A DNA stretch of 64,000 bases from Cryomorphaceae bacterium 1068 (GTDB lineage: Bacteria; Bacteroidota; Bacteroidia; Flavobacteriales_D; Cryomorphaceae), in assembly GCA_027214385.1 (NCBI GenBank), contig JAPVXR010000005.1, positions 62,001 to 126,000 on the forward strand. The letters are read 5' to 3'. Under the pieces are notes generated by a model, which was given only the letters and a program-made list of their open reading frames with translations, was not told the DNA's origin and did no database searches. A program made the position numbers and the translations under genes. How positions within the stretch are numbered: position 1 is the stretch's first letter; each line of letters opens with the position of its first letter. Shown piece after piece: positions 24,960-60,284 of this stretch.

Positions 24960-27900
24960 ATGCAAGAAGGAATATCGGGTAAAATTGCCAACTTCTTTAT
25001 CAATTCCAAGCTGACCATTTTGCTGATGATCGGACTGATGGTGATCGGGGTGTACAGCTCTACGCTCATCCCTCGTGAGGAGGAACCGCAGATCGTAGTG
25101 CCCATGGCCGACGTGATGATAGGTTATCCGGGGGCCAATCCTCAGGAGGTGGAAAGTCGCGTAATCGTGCCCCTGGAGAAGGTGCTCGCCAATATTAAGG
25201 GTGTGGAACACCTGCATAGCTCGGCGATGAATGGAATGGGGATGATCATCGTTCAGTTTTACGTGGGAGAGGATGTGGAGCGTTCATACGTCAATCTGTA
25301 CGATGCATTGATGAAGAACCGCCACCTGTTTCCCGAGGGCGTTTTTGAACCTATTGTAAAAACCCGCTCCATTGACGATGTGCCGATGTTGGGGCTGACA
25401 TTGTGGAGTGAGAACTACGACGATTTTGAGATTCGGGAAATGGCTGAGGAGCTGGTGACTGAGATCAAAAAAGTAGAGGATGTGGCCATTACCAATATCA
25501 TCGGTGGGCGAAATCGCGAACTGCGCGTGGTGCTCGACAAGGATAAAATGGCCGAAAGCGGGATAGATGCATTGGGAATAATCGAGATGATCAAGGCCAA
25601 TAATTATAGCTCACAATCGGGTCGTTTTAATAGCGGCGACGAAGAGTTTTTGGTTACCACGGGGCAGTTTTTGGGCTCTGCCGAAGATGTGGGAAACATC
25701 GTGGTTGGCGTGCATCAAAATATGCCCGTTTACCTCAATCAAATTGCAAGCGTTGAAGACGGGCCAGAAGTGCCTGCCACTTACGTTTCTTTTGGCTACG
25801 GCTCTGCCCAAGAGGCACATGCAAATGCTCCGTCTGAATATCCTGCCGTGACCATTTCGGTGGCCAAGGTGAAGGGTGCAGATGCCATGAAAATCTCGGA
25901 AAAAATTCTGGATAGAGTAGAGGGCTTGAAGCTTTCGCTCATACCCGATGATCTCAATATTGAAGTAAGCCGTAACTATGGGGAAACGGCATCGCACAAG
26001 GTAAGCGAGCTTTTGCTACACCTTGGGGTGGCCATTTTGGCCGTTACCATTTTGGTGATGTTTGCCATGGGATGGCGCGGTGGTTTGGTGGTGTTTTTCT
26101 CTGTTCCACTCACCTTTGCGCTTACGCTGTTTAGCTACTACATGCTGGGATATACCCTAAACAGGATTACCCTTTTTGCCTTGGTTTTTGTGGTGGGAAT
26201 TGTGGTGGACGACAGCATCATTATCGCTGAGAACATGCACCGCCACTTCAAGATGAAGCGCCTGCCGTTTAAACAAGCCGCCATCTACGCCATCAACGAA
26301 GTAGGGAACCCTACGATACTGGCCACCTTTACCGTAATCGCAGCGATTTTGCCGATGGCTTTTGTGTCGGGAATGATGGGGCCTTATATGAGCCCAATGC
26401 CGATCGGTGCATCCATCGCCATGATATTATCGCTCTTTGTAGCATTGACCATTACGCCTTATCTGGGCTATTACCTCCTTCGCGAGAAAGATTCTCAAGA
26501 GCACAAAGAAGCGGAAGGAATGGAAACGGGCTGGATTTACCGTGTGTACAAAAAGATAGAGCAGCCAATGCTCGACAGTTCTTCCAAACGCTATATTATG
26601 CTTGGGATTACAGTGGTGTTATTGTTGGGTTCGGTAGGGATGTTTTTCACCAAATCGGTGGCTGTAAAAATGCTTCCATTCGATAACAAAAACGAATTTC
26701 AGGTGGTGATAGATATGCCCGAGGGAACCACGCTGGAACGCACGGCGGCTGTGACCAAGGAGATCGCTCAGTACCTGTCTACGGTTCCCGAGATTGTGAA
26801 TTACCAGAACTATGTGGGTACTTCTGCACCGATCACTTTCAACGGATTGGTAAGGCATTACGATATGCGTTCTACCAGCAATGTGGCCGACATACAAGTG
26901 AATCTCTTGCACAAAGGCGAGCGCTCCGATCAGAGTCACGACATTGCCAAGCGGGTGCGTCCGGAAGTGCAAAAAATCGCTGCCCGATACGGAGCGAACG
27001 TGAAGATTGTAGAGGTACCACCAGGGCCTCCCGTTCTTTCCACTTTGGTGGCTGAGATTTATGGCCCCGATTACGATGGGCAAATAAAAGTCGCTCAAAG
27101 TGTGATCGATATTCTGGACAGTACAGATGCCGTGGTAGATATCGACTGGCGAGTGGAAGCTCCACAAACCGAATACAGATTGGTGGTAGACAATGAGAAG
27201 GCCATGCTTAATGGAGTGGCTCCTGCACAAGTGGTGGGAAACATTACCTACGTACTCGGCGAGCATACGGTATCGAATTTATATGATGAGAACTCCAGCG
27301 ACCCTGTCGGAATCGTTCTGGCCCTGGATGATCGGGATAAAACCGATCTGCAGGCTATTCAGAACTTGCAAGTGAAAGGACAAGCGGGCAATATGGTGCC
27401 GATGAGTTCATTGGTGCGGATAGAGGAAAACACCTTGAAGCATTCCATTTACCGCAAGGATCAGAAAAGGGTGGTATACGTAATGGCCGATATGGCGGGA
27501 GGACTGGAAAGTCCGGTGTATGCCATTTTGGGGATGGAAGAGAAGTTGAAGGAAATTAAACTTCCGGAGGGCTACACCATGAATGAAATGTACATGGGCC
27601 AACCCGAAGACGAGCAAAACTACACCGTAAAGTGGGATGGCGAATGGCAGATTACGCTGGAAGTATTCCGAGACTTGGGAGCGGCCTTTTTGGTGGTGAT
27701 TATTGTGATTTACATGTTGATCGTCGGATGGTTCCAGAATTTTAAAACCCCTCTGGTGATGATGGTAGCTATTCCGCTGTCTTTGGTGGGAATTGTGTTG
27801 GGGCACTGGATTTTGGGTGCCTTCTTTACCGCGACTTCTTTTATCGGAATGATTGCCTTGGCGGGAGTAATGGTTCGGAACTCCGTGCTGCTCATCGACT

Positions 27901-53921: not shown

Positions 53922-54803
53922 TTATACGGTTTCAGGTTGGTTGATCTTTACAAAGAAAACGTCCTCGAGATTGGGTTCGACGGACGTGAAACCTGCTCCG
54001 GGACTGCTGTCGCTCAGCACGTGTATTTGCGGACGACCTGCTACCATCTTATCGCTAATCACATCCATCGAGGCTTTTAGCGAATCGAGCTCCTCTCGAT
54101 CCACCATCTTCATCCACACCTTACCGCGCAATTCATCGATCACCGTAAATGGCGATCCTTTGTACATGATCTTACCCAAGTTCATAATGGCCATGTCTGA
54201 GCAGAGCTCTCTAACGTCTTCAACGATATGGGTAGAGAGAATTACGGTTACTTCTTCGCCTACATCGGCCAGAAGGTTGTGAAAGCGGTTTCGCTCACCC
54301 GGATCCAAACCTGCCGTTGGTTCGTCTACAATGATAAGTTTCGGATTTCCAATCAGCGCTTGAGCTATACCCACACGCTGCTTCATTCCACCCGAAAAGC
54401 CCTTGACACTCTTATTGCGTTTGTCGTATAGATTGACCTTTTGCAGAAGATACTTTACCAATTCTTTACGCTCTTTGCTATTGGTAATTCCTTTCAGAAT
54501 AGCCACATGGTCTAGCAGTTGCTCAGCAGTTACTCTGGGGTAAACACCAAACTCTTGCGGCAAGTATCCGAGTAGTTTTCTAACCTCAATGGGTTGATTC
54601 AGCATATCGATATCGTCCAGCATGGCGGTACCTGAATCTGCCTCTTGCAGGGTGGCAAGGGTTCGCATCAAACTCGATTTCCCTGCACCATTCGGACCTA
54701 ATAGTCCAAACATTCCATTCTTGATTTCCAGTGAAACATTGTCCAATGCTTTCACTCCATTCGGGTAAGTCTTACTTAGGTTTTCTATGCGAATCGTGGC
54801 CAT
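53922..54803 (-). CDS. ABC transporter ATP-binding protein
   Basis: A 293-residue ATPase with all motifs: Walker A GPNGAGKS at 36-43, Q-loop LPQEFGVYP, signature FSGGMKQRVGIAQAL, Walker B LIIVDEPTAGLDP and the switch His in LSTHIVED. The C-terminal 70 residues are an extra regulatory domain common among bacitracin/ABC-2-type exporters. It is translated just before the permease-peptidase with a three-base gap, forming an exporter. Confidence 0.95.
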   Translation of the reverse strand: MATIRIENLSKTYPNGVKALDNVSLEIKNGMFGLLGPNGAGKSSLMRTLATLQEADSGTAMLDDIDMLNQPIEVRKLLGYLPQEFGVYPRVTAEQLLDHVAILKGITNSKERKELVKYLLQKVNLYDKRNKSVKGFSGGMKQRVGIAQALIGNPKLIIVDEPTAGLDPGERNRFHNLLADVGEEVTVILSTHIVEDVRELCSDMAIMNLGKIMYKGSPFTVIDELRGKVWMKMVDREELDSLKASMDVISDKMVAGRPQIHVLSDSSPGAGFTSVEPNLEDVFFVKINQPETV

Positions 54804-54993
54804 ATCTTTGGTTTTAGAATGTGCAAAATAGGCATGGAACCGCAGAGACCTTTGTTTTTATGATAAATTGTTCTTCACAAATGAAGATTGGAAGTTTGAA
54901 AGGATAAGCGGTGGATGGATATGCCTCCTTTAAGAATATTTCGAAGAACAATTCTGTCTGTATCAGAATTTCGAGATTTCCACTTGGTGTATG

Positions 54994-55334
54994 TTATTTC
55001 TTAAAGTTGGCACTGTGGAAAGCCCTTATTCCAACCAAGTAAAGGAAGCCGCTATTGTGAATTTCCAGGACGAGGGTTCCGATAGTCGGATTCCTCTGTA
55101 GAATTTGAGAAGGTATCTCAATTCGGATAATTTGGCCTTGAGCCTGCTTCTTGGAGTCGATGTTAATGTATTCAATTATGTCAAGCAATCGATACGCTCT
55201 CGGCCTGGAGATTCCAAAGGTCCGACATAATTCTAGGATACTGTATTTTCCCGTACGCCATTCACAAATATACCTGACTGTCGGTAGATAGGTTCACTCT
55301 TTTGTTCCATTGTTGTACTTACTTTCCAAGGCAT
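54994..55334 (-). pseudogene. IS481-family transposase remnant (N-terminal part)
   Basis: On the minus strand an ATG at 55332-55334 starts MPWKVSTTMEQKSEPIY, and after a frame change the second frame, open from 55293 to 54994, reads VRYICEWRTGKYSILELCRTFGISRPRAYR. The stretch ELCRTFGISRP is the helix-turn-helix of IS481 transposases, here with the usual MPWK start. The catalytic DDE domain is missing, so the element is dead. Downstream of AYR the sequence (to 54994) does not resemble the transposase to my eye. Confidence 0.65.
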
Positions 55335-55372
55335 CCTAATCTGATTTTAACCTTAAATTACCCCCTAAAAAG

Positions 55373-55416
55373 TGTAAACCATGTCCATTTAACTTTGTAA
55401 ACTATATCCCTTTAAC
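55373..55416. repeat. tandem 21-base repeats beside the IS481 remnant
   Basis: TGTAAACCATGTCCATTTAAC at 55373 and TGTAAACTATATCCCTTTAAC at 55396 are repeated with a period of 23 bases and three differences. They resemble the end sequences of IS481-type elements, but their orientation relative to the transposase is not settled. Confidence 0.6.
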
Positions 55417-55518
55417 GGACCAATCGTACATGTTAATTATTCCCTTTCTTTATATACAAAGGCTAAGCTTCATCTAGTATTTAATTCCTATTGTTGGCGT
55501 CGCTAATTGATACACACT

Positions 55519-56979
55519 ATGAAAAAAATTCTAATCCTACTTACTTCCATTTGTATTGTCGGCTATTCAAAAGCCCAAACTACTTCCATTCCGGATTCCA
55601 ACTTTGAACAAAAGTTGATTGATTTGGGATACGATGTAGGTATACCTGATGGAACAGTACCTACTTCCAACATTTCTGATGTAACCTCTTTAATAGTATT
55701 CAACGAGCAAATCAGTGATCTTACCGGTATCGAAGATTTTGCGGCCCTCATGTATCTCGACTGTGGTGCCAACAATCTAACGTCTTTAAACCTCACTCAA
55801 AATGGCTCATTGACTCAATTGGTCTGCAACGCCAATTCATTGACGGGCATTGACCTTTCAGGAAATCCATTACTGGAGAGAATCAATATTTCTTACAATG
55901 ATTTAACTTCTTTGGATATCGCCCCATGTCAAAACTTGCAATTAATCAGGGCAGGCTATAATGATCTATCGGGCATTTCGCTTTCTCAAAATGTGAACTT
56001 AAATCACGTCGATCTCCAAGGGAATAATCTCGGATTAATAGATGTGAGTTCTAATAGCAACATAGATACCTTAAACGTAGCTCAATGTGACTTATCTTCT
56101 CTTGATGTCACGAATAATACTGAATTGAGAAGCCTCGATTTTTGGGGCAATTCCGTTACTTCCATAGACCTGTCTCAAAACACGAACATCGTCATTCTTT
56201 CGTGTTACCAGAATCAGCTCACTTCTTTAGATATCTCTGCTCTTACCGAACTCGAAGGCCTCTTTTGCTGGTTCAATCAGCTGACGAGTATCAACTCTTC
56301 TTCCAACCCTAATCTGAAGGCACTTTCTTGCTACAACAACAACATTACGAGCTTAGATCTAATCAATAACCTTCAATTGGAAGCGCTGGCTTGTGAGTTC
56401 AATAACTTGACTGCGCTCGATGTTTCCAACAATTTATTGCTCAATCAAATCAGGTGTCACGACAACCAAATAGGTGAGTTGAACTTGAGCAACAATTCAC
56501 AATTGTTCAATATTAAGTGTCAAAACAATAATCTCACTTGCTTAAACGCAAGTACGGGCTCTAGCAGTACCATACAGACAGGCGGATTTAATGCAAATAA
56601 TAATCCGGGGTTATCGTGCATAGAAGTGGATGACGTGGATTGGAGCACTTTCAACTGGATTAACGTGGATCCTGGCGTATCCTTTTCGCTGGATTGTAAC
56701 AACGCTTGTTCAGGTGCTCCCTTATCTCTCGATTCAGAGAGTCACGTTAATGTTTTCAGCATTTATCCGAACCCTGCTTCGAGCAATGTGATAATAGAAC
56801 TTCGTGCCACGGACATAGTAGAAGTCAGACTACTGGATCTTTCCGGTCGCTTGGTTATGACTGTCCGCCCTGAGCGATCGGTGGTGAAATTTAACGTGGA
56901 TGCTGTGGTGAGCGGAACCTACCTGGTTCAAGTACTAACTGAGAATAGTGTCCAAACTCAAAAATTACTTATTGAGTGA
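55519..56979 (+). CDS. leucine-rich repeat surface protein with T9SS sorting domain
   Basis: I place the start at 55519, giving a signal peptide (MKKILILLTSICIVGYS, cleavage after SKAQ). The 486-residue protein has about a dozen short leucine-rich repeats of the LTSLDLSxNxxL type from residue 60 to 370, a cysteine-bearing cap (about 345-400) and a T9SS C-terminal sorting domain (IYPNPAS region). It is exported to the cell surface by T9SS, probably as a binding protein. Cysteines recur once per repeat in several repeats (LYLDCG, LVCN, LSCYQN). It lies in the accessory stretch right of an IS remnant. Confidence 0.88.
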   Translation: MKKILILLTSICIVGYSKAQTTSIPDSNFEQKLIDLGYDVGIPDGTVPTSNISDVTSLIVFNEQISDLTGIEDFAALMYLDCGANNLTSLNLTQNGSLTQLVCNANSLTGIDLSGNPLLERINISYNDLTSLDIAPCQNLQLIRAGYNDLSGISLSQNVNLNHVDLQGNNLGLIDVSSNSNIDTLNVAQCDLSSLDVTNNTELRSLDFWGNSVTSIDLSQNTNIVILSCYQNQLTSLDISALTELEGLFCWFNQLTSINSSSNPNLKALSCYNNNITSLDLINNLQLEALACEFNNLTALDVSNNLLLNQIRCHDNQIGELNLSNNSQLFNIKCQNNNLTCLNASTGSSSTIQTGGFNANNNPGLSCIEVDDVDWSTFNWINVDPGVSFSLDCNNACSGAPLSLDSESHVNVFSIYPNPASSNVIIELRATDIVEVRLLDLSGRLVMTVRPERSVVKFNVDAVVSGTYLVQVLTENSVQTQKLLIE

Positions 56980-57045
56980 TGTCTGCCCTACCTCATGAAT
57001 TGATGCCTTCTTTTCACATTTTGGTTGCTGTAGGAAGGGTTGATT

Positions 57046-57108
57046 GAGCGCAACGCCAACTGTAGGGTGCGGATCCCGGAGGGAATGTACTATACCCGTT
57101 GTTGCCGC
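57046..57108. repeat. attC-like hairpin site A
   Basis: GCGCAACGCCAAC at 57047 pairs imperfectly with a right arm ending GTTGCCGC near 57108, with GCGG/CCGG islands inside. It lies just downstream of the minus-strand gene at 57130. The match to attC is looser than for sites B and C. Confidence 0.4.
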
Positions 57109-57129
57109 ATCGTGTTTTTTCATTTTAAT

Positions 57130-57807
57130 TCAAAATAGTTGCGCTTCTCTAGTCAGTTCAGACTTTCGAACCCCTAAGAAGTCTACAAACCAATTTTCAA
57201 GTATTTTATCAAGCTCATTCTTATTAATTGTCTGAGAGTTTCTTCTGGATTTCACGTAGTTCTCTCTTGTCATTTTTTCGGATAACTCCCTAACAGTTTT
57301 GACATTAAGTTCGTTACCGAGTTTATTTGAAATCCAAATGCCACCTATTGCGAGCCCAAGTCCAATAAGTCCATATGGCCAATCAATGAAAAGCACGATA
57401 AATGAAGCTAATAACAAAATCGCTAAAAACCCTGTAACAAAATGAGGTGGTCGCAATATTGACAGCTTAAATCCCAAATTCATTTCAAGGGTTTTTACCT
57501 GATTTTTTCTAGTCTTCCTCGGAAATATTTCCGCAAGTTCTGTAGTCGGGGTGATTTCCTTTTTTTCAGTTTCTGTCGATTTTGTTAATGCTTCCCTTAG
57601 TTTATAAAAAGCTTGTTGAGTGGTGCAATCTTCAGAATGGTCGAGACTGATTTTGTCTTTTATCGCGTCACAGAATTCTCCATAAGTTCTAACATGGGCT
57701 AATTCATTAGTCTCAAATCTAATGTCGAACGAATCTTCGATTTTAAGAAGCATGTGTTCTAAGTCTTCTGAGTCTATTTTCAATTCCATGTCTGTCGTTT
57801 TTTGCAT
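57130..57807 (-). CDS. cassette-borne membrane protein of unknown function
   Basis: A 225-residue protein, AT-rich by comparison with its neighbours, starting at 57807 or at the second ATG at 57789. The N-terminal 90 residues resemble an acyl-carrier-like helical domain (EDSFDIRFETNELAHVRT, CTTQQAFYKLREALTKS) and two membrane helices lie near residues 130-165. I recall such proteins from cassette regions of Bacteroidota, but no function is known. Hairpin sites lie at both ends. Confidence 0.65.
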   Translation of the reverse strand: MQKTTDMELKIDSEDLEHMLLKIEDSFDIRFETNELAHVRTYGEFCDAIKDKISLDHSEDCTTQQAFYKLREALTKSTETEKKEITPTTELAEIFPRKTRKNQVKTLEMNLGFKLSILRPPHFVTGFLAILLLASFIVLFIDWPYGLIGLGLAIGGIWISNKLGNELNVKTVRELSEKMTRENYVKSRRNSQTINKNELDKILENWFVDFLGVRKSELTREAQLF

Positions 57808-57885
57808 GTGCGCTAACGCTCAGAGTAAGATGTCGTAGCTGACGATAGGAAGCTATGCATTCTTATATAATGTTAGCGTGCATCT
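57804..57885. repeat. attC-like hairpin site B
   Basis: An imperfect palindrome of about 80 bases with outer arms GCATGTGCGCTAAC and GTTAGCGTGCATC, and inner arms containing TAAGA/TCTTA and TAGCT/AGCTA. The core GTTAGC occurs at both ends, as in integron attC R' and R'' sites, although not an exact match to the GTTRRRY consensus. Confidence 0.6.
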
Positions 57886-58490
57886 TTTTTTATTTTTATA
57901 TCTCTATCATACACTCCAATTAAAAGTCTTAGAATTTCGTATTCGAATTTATCAAGATCACAGTTTCTAAAGGTCATTAAGCTGTCATTGTTCGAAAAGT
58001 CAATCTCACAGACATCATGCTCTAGTGATAATGTCAGACTATCGAATTCATGATAAAACTTCCCCCTGATCTTACTCGAATCATTATTAAACGTTAAATA
58101 ATAATGATCAACTAATCTACCACTTTTTGTAGTCGCATAATCCCAATACTCTGCTTTAATGTCGCCGTTGTTATAATAATTTTCTACACGATCCAGGGAT
58201 AGGGTATGGCCGCCGTAAAGATATTCCCATTGTCCTATTCTCATATCATCCTTAAAGTAGCCACGAATTTCGGCGATTGGGGAATAATGTGCATTATACC
58301 GACATCCTGCGTCACTTCCCAAGTCAGCGTATGAGCTAGAAGTTAATCTGTTTTTTTTATAAATCCATAATCCCTGTTTCAACCCAACCGAATCAATACA
58401 ATTAACGGCTACCCCGTCATAAGTGTCGCAAGACTGCCCGAGACATGCTAGACTAAAAGCAAGTAAAAGTATTGTCAAAATTCTAGTCAT
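57873..58490 (-). CDS. cassette-borne secreted MORN-like protein
   Basis: A 205-residue protein with a signal peptide (LACLGQ, cleavage near the C of LGQSC, which could also serve as a lipobox variant) and MORN-2-like strips: GLKQGLWIYK, IRGYFKDDMRIGQWEYLYGG and ENYYNNGDIKAEYWDY. It is AT-rich and lies between attC-like sites B and C. MORN repeats are often found in Bacteroidota surface proteins; role unknown. Confidence 0.65.
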   Translation of the reverse strand: MTRILTILLLAFSLACLGQSCDTYDGVAVNCIDSVGLKQGLWIYKKNRLTSSSYADLGSDAGCRYNAHYSPIAEIRGYFKDDMRIGQWEYLYGGHTLSLDRVENYYNNGDIKAEYWDYATTKSGRLVDHYYLTFNNDSSKIRGKFYHEFDSLTLSLEHDVCEIDFSNNDSLMTFRNCDLDKFEYEILRLLIGVYDRDIKIKKDAR

Positions 58491-58499
58491 ATTCTTATG

Positions 58500-58575
58500 C
58501 TCGCTAACAATAGTATAAGCGCAATTACCTTCGGTGAGAACGCTCCGCTTAGTTGCGCTTATTCAGCTTATGGCC
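58500..58575. repeat. attC-like hairpin site C
   Basis: On the minus strand the site ends in GTTAGCG at 58502; the inner stem ATAAGCGCAA/TTGCGCTTAT is perfect. Loop region TTCGGTGAGAACGCTCC. It lies upstream of the MORN-like gene on the minus strand, completing its cassette boundary. Confidence 0.55.
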
Positions 58576-58649
58576 TTACCTGAAGTTTAGTTGTACTGGA
58601 AGGTCTCAGCTCTATTGTAAATTCTACCTACAAGTATAACGAATGTGAG

Positions 58650-58696
58650 GCTCAACGCGACATGGCAGGTGCCATTGCCTGTCATAGCCGTAGAAT
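58650..58696. repeat. possible attC-like hairpin site D
   Basis: GCTCAAC at 58650-58656 matches the attC R'' pattern RYYYAAC, and GTAGAAT at 58690-58696 matches GTTRRRY with one base off. Between them lies the stem ATGGCAGG/CCTGTCAT. Spacing is shorter than in typical attC sites, so this is tentative. Confidence 0.3.
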
Positions 58697-58735
58697 CGGA
58701 TTATACGTATAAATATACGTGTAAATGGATTCTAC
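58690..58735. repeat. 46-base imperfect palindrome
   Basis: GTAGAATC...TACGTAT on the left matches the reverse complement of the right arm at 17 of 21 positions around an AAAT loop. It could fold into a long RNA or DNA hairpin. It does not overlap a gene. Confidence 0.6.
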
Positions 58736-58880
58736 ACTTTTGTCCGTTTTGTTTGGTTAACAGGTTTTACAACAGTGCCATACCGTCGGCAGTTCCGACA
58801 GGTGAGCGTTGTTTTTGTGTCCATACAAGCTACTGCTTCTTCTTTTTAACCCATCGCCGCAGGTGGATTGTTCTATTGCC

Positions 58881-58888
58881 TAAATTTG
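58881..58888 (+). promoter_or_regulatory. -7-like element before the sensor kinase gene
   Basis: TAAATTTG is an exact TAnnTTTG match, but ends only four bases before the ATG at 58893, so the transcript would be nearly leaderless. No -33 element at the normal distance. Could be a chance match. Confidence 0.3.
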
Positions 58889-58892
58889 GAAA

Positions 58893-60284
58893 ATGAATCT
58901 GATCCAAGAATTTCGAAAGAACGAGTCGCTGCAGGATATAGCCGATAAGCATCTGCAATTCATGGTCGATCATGGAGAGGTAAGAAGCTACAAGAAAGGC
59001 GACTTTATTTTCAAGGCAGGAGATTCTGCAGACGAACTTCTTTACATCTTAAGTGGCCGTTTCCGATTGATCCTTACTCAGAATGGCGAACAGCGAGAAG
59101 TTGCAATGATGACGCAATACGATATTTCAGGCGTGTTGCCATACAGTCGAATGACCCATGCGCAAGGTGCTGCAGAATGCCGTGAAGATGCTGAGATTTT
59201 TGCCATGGATAGAAAACACTTTCGCGAAATGATTGTGAACCATGAACCGCTCGCCGAAGCCTTGGTTCATCATATGGCTTCGCGTATTCGGAGTTTTACC
59301 AAGTTGCGTATGCAAGATGAAAAGCTGATTTCTTTGGGAAAGCTCTCGGCAGGGCTTGCCCATGAACTGAATAACCCTGCCAGTGCCATGGTGCGTAGCT
59401 CAGAGGAATTGTCCAAGCATCTCAAGCTATTGCCCGATGGATTTAAGCAGGTGATGAAGTCAAACCTCGATCCTGACAAGGTTGATAAAGTGAATGATTG
59501 GCTTTTTTCTATTCTAGATCATGAACGCCCATCATTGACCCTGATGGAAAGAAATGATCGAGAAGATGAAGTTTCAGATCTTTTGGAAGAGTATGGCATA
59601 GACGATCCTTTTGAGCTTTCAGAAGAATGCGTGGATTATGGCCTGAGCGGCGATGATATTGAAAGCCTTCATGAACTCACCGGGGAAGGTGATTTTCACA
59701 CAGTCATTCATTGGGTCGTCAATAACTTGAGCACCGAACGAATGGTGGAAGAGATTCATACGTCTGCTGAGCGCATATCGACCTTGATTGGAAGTATCAA
59801 AGAGTACAGTCACATGGATCGGAGCCAAGACAGGCAGGATGTTGACATCAACTCTGGCTTAAAGAGCACTATTACGATGTTGCGTCACAAGGCGAAGAAT
59901 GCGCAAATAGAAATAGAAGAAGCCTATTGCGACGGTATTCCTCACCTTTCGGGAATGCCGGGAGAATTGAATCAAGTTTGGACCAATATCATCGACAATG
60001 CGCTCGATGCCATGGAGGGAGGTGGTACCCTGCGTATTCAAACCGATTGGGTTGAACCCAATGTTTGTATTAAAATTTCCGATACCGGTTCGGGGATCCC
60101 TGAAGAAATTCAAAGCCAAATCTTTGATCCATTCTTTACCACAAAATCTGTCGGTAAAGGAACAGGGTTGGGCTTGGACATTGTCAATAAAATTGTGGCT
60201 CGGCATAGTGGCCGAATTGATTTAAAATCAAAACCCGGGCACACCGAATTTACCATAACCTTACCTGCAGTAGAAGCGATATAG
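58893..60284 (+). CDS. sensor histidine kinase with cyclic-nucleotide-binding domain
   Basis: A 463-residue cytoplasmic kinase. Residues 1-130 form a cNMP-binding-type barrel (KAGDSADELLYILSGRFRLI), followed by a HisKA helix with His157 in GKLSAGLAHELNNPAS, a middle acidic linker (residues about 195-275) and a HATPase domain with N box NIIDNALDAM, G1 DTGSGIP and G2 GKGTGLGLDIV. It should sense a ligand and phosphorylate the response-regulator/flavoprotein encoded next. The stop TAG directly abuts the ATG of that gene, so they are one operon. Confidence 0.93.
   Translation: MNLIQEFRKNESLQDIADKHLQFMVDHGEVRSYKKGDFIFKAGDSADELLYILSGRFRLILTQNGEQREVAMMTQYDISGVLPYSRMTHAQGAAECREDAEIFAMDRKHFREMIVNHEPLAEALVHHMASRIRSFTKLRMQDEKLISLGKLSAGLAHELNNPASAMVRSSEELSKHLKLLPDGFKQVMKSNLDPDKVDKVNDWLFSILDHERPSLTLMERNDREDEVSDLLEEYGIDDPFELSEECVDYGLSGDDIESLHELTGEGDFHTVIHWVVNNLSTERMVEEIHTSAERISTLIGSIKEYSHMDRSQDRQDVDINSGLKSTITMLRHKAKNAQIEIEEAYCDGIPHLSGMPGELNQVWTNIIDNALDAMEGGGTLRIQTDWVEPNVCIKISDTGSGIPEEIQSQIFDPFFTTKSVGKGTGLGLDIVNKIVARHSGRIDLKSKPGHTEFTITLPAVEAI

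Follow-up and report, generated by a model that had tools for sequence, protein, structure and literature searches.

We found that a 64,000-nucleotide stretch of the genome of Cryomorphaceae bacterium 1068, analysed as a whole and called the window here, likely carries (probability of about 0.85) a small array that lacks its own recombinase and belongs to an integron-like system of gene capture, one that appears to be widespread in Bacteroidota and uses a recombinase other than IntI. No recombination was observed. The homology of the sites, the pairing of cassette-end tags, the chaining of cassettes, the direction of their genes, the attI-like palindromes and the presence or absence of the array are shown at the sequence level; that the system works like an integron, yet is not an IntI integron, is inferred from sequence alone.

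An array of cassette-like genes in the window

The initial annotation of the window had pointed to two minus-strand genes of no known function lying between palindromes. This description held: both genes are open reading frames (ORFs), and neither product, P1 or P2, matched a Pfam or NCBIfam family above cut-off. By eye, P2 has an N-terminal signal-like stretch and the C-terminal half of P1 contains hydrophobic stretches. A search of 60 genomes for relatives of the P2 protein returned a single weak match besides P2 itself. On the minus strand the order is site C (an attI-like palindrome), P2, hairpin B, P1 and hairpin A, with one hairpin 3′ of each gene and an extra palindrome ahead of P2. The features are as follows.

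Site C, 58502-58578, minus strand: attI-like array head; palindrome GAATAAGCGCAA ... TTGCGCTTATAC, then GTTAGCG.
P2 gene, 57873-58490, minus strand: ORF of 205 aa; first cassette gene.
Site B, 57811-57878, minus strand: attC-like hairpin separating P2 from P1; R″ CGCTAAC, R′ GTTAGCG.
P1 gene, 57130-57807, minus strand: ORF of 225 aa; probable second cassette gene.
Site A, 57048-57111, minus strand: attC-like hairpin after P1; sequence weaker than that of the other sites.
Possible third cassette, 55493-57060, plus strand: around the LRR gene 55507-56979; ends GTTGGCGTCGC and GCAACGCCAAC.
Variable interval, 54804-58892, no strand: contains the LRR gene, P1 and P2; about 0.2 kb stands instead in a genome of the same genus (G001).

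The GTTAGCG at 58502-58508 is both the end of site C and the start of cassette P2, and the P2 stop codon falls within the CGCTAAC end of site B. Several further claims of the initial annotation could be judged at this point. GTTAGCG does stand at the ends of sites B and C (B is CGCTAAC..GTTAGCG, and C ends in GTTAGCG), and the GTTRRRY core is indeed unmet. The cassette layout, with a hairpin downstream of each gene, was confirmed for B and A; site C is an attI-like head, not an attC. Good pairing of the inner arms held for C, where they are 10-11 nt long, while the single-strand folds were not clearly better than those of shuffled sequences: folding of single-stranded DNA gave z = -1.07 for B, -1.25 for C and -0.81 for A, and did not single the sites out. 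Since many shuffled sequences fold as well as these three sites, structure alone proves nothing, and the case for the window sites rests on homology, covariation and cassette-end tags, not on folding.

The patterns GCTAAC-N30..60-GTTAGC and GCGCAAC-N30..60-GTTRGC each occur once in the window, against 0.06 and 0.09 expected. Over the whole genome the exact pattern GCTAAC-N38..68-GTTAGC showed no excess (5 versus 16 per strand in a backwards control), and several of the 5 places look like chance matches in coding sequence; the pattern still led to an array on contig C20. A first hairpin scan gave 0 candidates in the window, its filters being too strict for the window sites. An Rfam search of the region returned AniS as its sole match, at chance level (E 0.96), which was discarded.

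The cassette-end tags support P2. Its tag was matched at 10/11 nt at the cassette ends, and only 5/5000 shuffles did as well. The P1 tag reached 7/11, which is not significant (773/5000 shuffles as good), and P1 as a tagged cassette is thus unsupported. The tag of the LRR gene at 55507-56979, whose product has a secretion-tail domain, was matched at 10/11 (7/5000 shuffles as good). This gene could form a third cassette that shares site A and runs opposite to P1 and P2; its orientation is unresolved because the inner end overlaps site A.

Hairpins fixed at one location across relatives would have refuted the cassette reading; in the one same-genus genome compared, G001, the insert is missing. 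The orthologues of the flanking genes, 53922-54803 and 58893-60284, are adjacent in that genome, only 192 bp apart (ORFs at 26589 and 26782 of its contig C15). The insert of about 4.1 kb contains only three ORFs longer than 200 aa, and no transposase or conjugation gene was seen in it. The two genomes therefore differ in the 4.1-kb interval with the LRR gene, P1 and P2, and either state could be the older.

Relatives of the window sites

Similar sites at other positions and in other genomes, as expected of mobile cassettes, were found in arrays on contigs C12, C20 and C16 of the same genome and in a genome of another family (G053). Site B is identical at 49/49 nt to a site in the C12 array, at 45/50 nt to the C20 site, at 33/36 nt to a C16 site, and at 32/33 nt to one from the array that follows the recombinase of G053. 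Site A shares 86% identity over 37 nt with a C12 site (L171) found with the covariance model described below. Site C matches the head of the C12 array at 22/23 nt and has 11/11 nt in common with the attI-like palindrome adjoining a recombinase gene on C16; a degenerate copy (28/30) lies at the start of contig C5, to which the window belongs. The array on C20 (L027), the second one, alternates genes and hairpins: a gene of 131 aa with a hairpin after it, then one of 264 aa with a second hairpin, which is close to site B. The core of site B was not found in viral contigs.

A covariance model, R1, was built from 20 short-loop sites, none from the window and 4 from C16 of this genome. In the alignment AAC and GTT are invariant and the L arms covary, with 51 double-change cells against 18.7 in shuffles (0/500 shuffles as high); sliding the partner gave at most 14 such cells. 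By this covariation the 20 sites fulfil the attC requirement of an imperfect hairpin whose R and L boxes pair. In the window, site B was the sole match of R1 (E 5.5e-4) and site A was not matched. In the genome R1 matched 31 places at E ≤ 1, of which 27 at E < 0.05, grouped on contigs C16, C20, C13, C3, C21, C12, C9, C5 and C7. R1 had no match at E ≤ 1e-4 in the one-contig genome G099 although the array there is clear, so the model captures some of the sites and misses others. In a set of 100 genomes from the order, R1 matches (39 genomes) were not associated with the recombinase (59 genomes): 25/59 versus 14/41, p = 0.53. This may reflect a model restricted to short-loop sites, incomplete assemblies and orphan arrays, but it still counts against a simple picture.

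In this genome attC-like sites were also observed near contig ends (C3:60-120, C5:60-120, C16:99925-100000 and C9:1197-1804). Arrays thus probably break the assembly and are under-counted.

A tyrosine recombinase without the IntI insertion

The initial annotation had noted that no integrase lies in the window; this held, and a PF00589 search found no tyrosine recombinase anywhere on contig C5. The five PF00589 matches in the genome are all on other contigs. The suggested genome-wide search for an IntI-type integrase led to a tyrosine recombinase on C16 (81999-83123, equal to L016:18000-19124) that is not IntI. It scored 226 bits with NF040815 (cut-off 220) and 184.5 bits with the IntI model TIGR02249, under the cut-off of 265, and no TIGR02249 match over the cut-off exists anywhere in this genome. 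The IntI-specific insertion is missing: residues 186-244 of IntI4 (2a3v) have no counterpart, the query jumping from 282 to 299, and TIGR02249 positions 180-239 are unmatched. An alignment of 11 relatives shows conservation of the catalytic residues. A structure predicted for the Winogradskyella eckloniae member (pLDDT 84.4, pTM 0.59) has as its nearest solved folds XerA 5hxy (31%) and IntI4 2a3v (29%). Members of the family often have about 100 extra N-terminal residues, a region without any Pfam domain. In a quick tree of 93 rows, which has open forks, the ten IntI proteins from the phylum group in a single clade (support 100, branch length 2.06), and the array-bearing loci are spread over the remainder, outside the IntI clade.

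In 27/93 distinct loci a small protein encoded divergently upstream, 88-772 nt away, resembles the 117-aa zinc-ribbon protein of this genome, whose gene lies at L016:17516-17869. In Pfam the protein has treble-clef matches only, all sub-threshold. It is possibly a partner or regulator of the recombinase. When contig C15 of G001 (L074) is compared with C16 (L016), from the genome of the same genus studied here, identity is 78% for the zinc-ribbon proteins and only 35% for the recombinases, as might be seen if the recombinase had been exchanged.

Directly 3′ of the C16 recombinase gene lies ATAAGCGCAATAGCGCTTAT-CCAATT-GTTGGGCC, followed by genes. Similar attI-like palindromes were sought at the 76 distinct loci with at least 90 nt behind the recombinase gene. 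A stem with a score of at least 10 ending 2-9 nt before a GTT was present in 24/76 loci, against 5/1520 shuffles; the other 52/76 had no strong palindrome within 200 nt. Three loci of one family (L045, L062 and L063) show where the shared sequence stops. Up to the GTT, 130-143 of 150 nt are identical between them, and the 150 nt after it gave 76-81 identities with 18-28 gaps in a gapped alignment, approximately the level of unrelated sequence; the genes after the GTT are different. In an ungapped version the comparison was clear in only 1/3 pairs because of a one-base indel. The criterion of an attI site adjoining the integrase gene is met, by sequence only, by the attI-like palindrome. The earlier suggestion of a related mobile cassette type is thus supported by the homology of the sites, by the absence of the insert from G001, and by the C16 recombinase with its attI-like site and array.

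Cassette-like arrays behind recombinases in Bacteroidia

In the order, 80/100 genomes matched the recombinase at E ≤ 1e-30, the lowest matches being probably XerD-like; 59/100 were counted as carriers, by hand, at 166 bits or more. In the class Bacteroidia 145/295 sampled genomes matched at E ≤ 1e-48. Carriers include Winogradskyella, Flaviramulus, Saonia, Pontibacter, Flavobacterium, Terrimonas and Chryseobacterium. Some recombinase loci are labelled as other phyla, and every one of those is a metagenome-assembled genome (MAG). One such MAG, labelled Oscillospiraceae (Bacillota; L124), has a family recombinase and two linked cassettes, and either transfer or mis-binning could explain it.

A cassette was called linked when a GTT closes a hairpin and the 11-nt tag of this GTT is matched at 9/11 or better by a stretch that ends in AAC and in turn opens a hairpin. 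The recombinase loci of the set L059-L132 were all used, L078 and L117 apparently being one region. Downstream of the recombinases, 386 kb of sequence contained 47 linked R″ ends; upstream, 376 kb contained 1, and letter shuffles gave 0. Many recombinase loci yielded no linked cassette. Closer inspection of 19 regions, picked mostly for having links, gave 49 linked cassettes in 15/19, with a median of 762 bp. The longest ORF runs in the direction of the array in 43/49 of them, and the criterion of one-gene, one-orientation cassette arrays is met by this count. Three linked cassettes lie near the contig end of C16, and nine form a chain at L059, in the one-contig genome G099. Most attC-like sites of L059 are 155-180 nt long and alike; long attC-like sites that resemble one another occur in Vibrio superintegrons. 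In the core of the sites the GTT is invariant and the next bases differ by cassette, and GTTRRRY is not met.

True IntI was found over the TIGR02249 cut-off in 84/296 genomes of the phylum. Among the 86 phylum genomes with any TIGR02249 match, only G136 belongs to the same class. IntI is hence frequent in the phylum outside Bacteroidia, and commoner there than an older survey suggests.

tet(X) genes and the recombinase family

The tet(X) genes inactivate tetracyclines, tigecycline included. TnpF, which adjoins tet(X3) on plasmids pHH1107 and pJAT2044, is a member of the recombinase family (54% over residues 145-377), and a palindrome ending in TTGTTATGTGCC lies between TnpF and tet(X3) (L178:4836-4893 on pHH1107; fold z -3.75). 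On the Sphingobacterium faecium plasmid pWB1, tet(X2) (cassette region L182:13615-14955) starts after GTTATGTGCC with the same start tag as tet(X3) and its cassette ends with GGCACATAAC, the tag being matched at 10/11 (45/5000 shuffles as good). A hairpin 3′ of tet(X2) (z -4.17) ends in CGTTG and is followed by estT. The pWB1 palindrome ahead of tet(X2) is weak (z -0.79), the downstream tag of tet(X3) is not recognisable on the Acinetobacter segment (7/11, 614/2000 shuffles as good), and R1 had no convincing match on the plasmid loci (best E 0.022, L181; none on the tet(X) loci). We conclude that tet(X2) on pWB1 is bounded as a cassette of this system, a conclusion that rests on the tag and the fold. 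On balance, and by a narrow margin, we favour the view that Bacteroidia possess an IntI-independent integron lineage of their own, with a XerA/IntI-like recombinase that lacks the IntI insertion, is often paired with a zinc-ribbon protein and inserts cassettes at a palindromic attI following its gene, and that mobile tet(X) genes were first captured by this lineage.

Proposed mechanism and alternative explanations

In the model that we propose, a tyrosine recombinase with an IntI/XerA-like fold but without the IntI insertion would have behind it an attI-like palindrome ending in CGTT or TGTT, and circular cassettes would insert at the GTT of this palindrome. Each cassette would hold one gene, occasionally more, start with GTT and about 6-8 cassette-specific bases, and end with the reverse complement of these bases plus AAC, followed by the folded attC-like site. 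We infer that the recombinase cuts at the GTT, that the folded single strand is the substrate of recombination, that the choice of strand may come from unequal spacers (3 nt versus about 5 nt, by eye), and that cassettes may be expressed from the head of the array. In the window, site C would act as a secondary head of the attI-like kind; P2 would be a cassette whose attC is B, and P1 probably one whose attC is A. These cassettes would be served in trans by the C16 recombinase, or would be remnants of earlier insertions.

A first objection is that these are classical cassettes of an IntI integron that was missed in, or lost from, this genome. The shared logic of attI, attC, tags and one gene per cassette speaks for it, as does the commonness of true IntI in the rest of the phylum (84/296 genomes). 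We nevertheless hold it to be very unlikely: no IntI match exceeds the cut-off in the genome and G136 alone represents the class among the matching genomes, arrays stand directly behind the non-IntI recombinase in many genomes, and the cores do not follow GTTRRRY but have variable bases after the GTT. Equally improbable in our judgement is that the hairpins are interspersed repeats (REP- or MITE-like), terminators or mRNA stabilisers and that P1 and P2 are genes of the ordinary kind. In its favour, the hairpins are multi-copy and stand behind genes, and those of the window fold no better than shuffles; but this explanation predicts neither cassette-specific ends that pair across a whole gene, nor chains such as the nine cassettes of L059, nor divergence exactly at the GTT behind the recombinase.

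The arrival of P2 and P1 on a larger mobile element (ICE, plasmid or IS), with the hairpins marking former cassettes, deserves more weight and is still unlikely. It would fit a window array without an adjoining recombinase, and arrays and single sites scattered over about nine contigs. Against it, the insert measures only about 4 kb, with three ORFs above 200 aa and no transposase or conjugation gene seen, and the minus-strand head is an attI-like site common to other arrays of the genome. The integron-like reading remains the one that we prefer. If the system works as proposed, the definition of integrons by IntI, which is the accepted one, is too narrow, a large pool of Bacteroidota cassettes has been overlooked, and the need for the IntI insertion in recombination of hairpin sites becomes directly testable; tet(X) mobility, too, gains a concrete hypothesis of origin.

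Comparison with known systems

Bacteroidota, or the Bacteroidetes/Chlorobi group, have been listed among integron-bearing lineages (PMC8618304, PMC9668308, PMC2426708). In Bacteroidetes only In0 had been known before one complete integron was reported, in Salinibacter ruber (PMC9024848); that IntI-based survey found almost no Bacteroidetes integrons, whereas the recombinase described here was matched in about half of the Bacteroidia genomes in our sample. We found no description of the system in the titles and abstract openings of the open-access literature searched; subscription papers and preprints were outside this search, and a prior description is possible.

The tnpF/xerD-tet(X) segments of Acinetobacter plasmids resemble the system in having a family recombinase and an attI-like palindrome before tet(X3), but their published description is of a transposon or ISCR2 context and not of an integron (PMC8693923). 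The XerA-type proteins of NF040815, 'site-specific tyrosine recombinase/integron integrase', are close to the C16 recombinase (226 bits), and the nearest folds are XerA 5hxy and IntI4 2a3v; the family described here differs in often having about 100 extra N-terminal residues and in fronting cassette arrays.

The closest parallel is with IntI integrons, sedentary chromosomal ones and CALIN included. Both have a recombinase gene adjoining an attI or attI-like site, single-gene cassettes in one orientation with mutually complementary ends, attC-like hairpins that have R and L boxes, long repeats that are nearly identical within an array (as at L059), and orphan clusters such as that of the window. 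A CALIN is defined by two or more attC sites and no integrase nearby; the window does have two sites, B and A, and no recombinase on its contig C5, but these sites are non-canonical as attC, and there is also an attI-like head. The system differs from IntI integrons in a recombinase without the IntI-specific insertion that does not group in the IntI clade, in a core of GTT plus variable bases where IntI sites have GTTRRRY, in a palindromic attI-like site that immediately follows the recombinase gene, the array running in that gene's direction, and in the divergent zinc-ribbon gene upstream in 27/93 loci.
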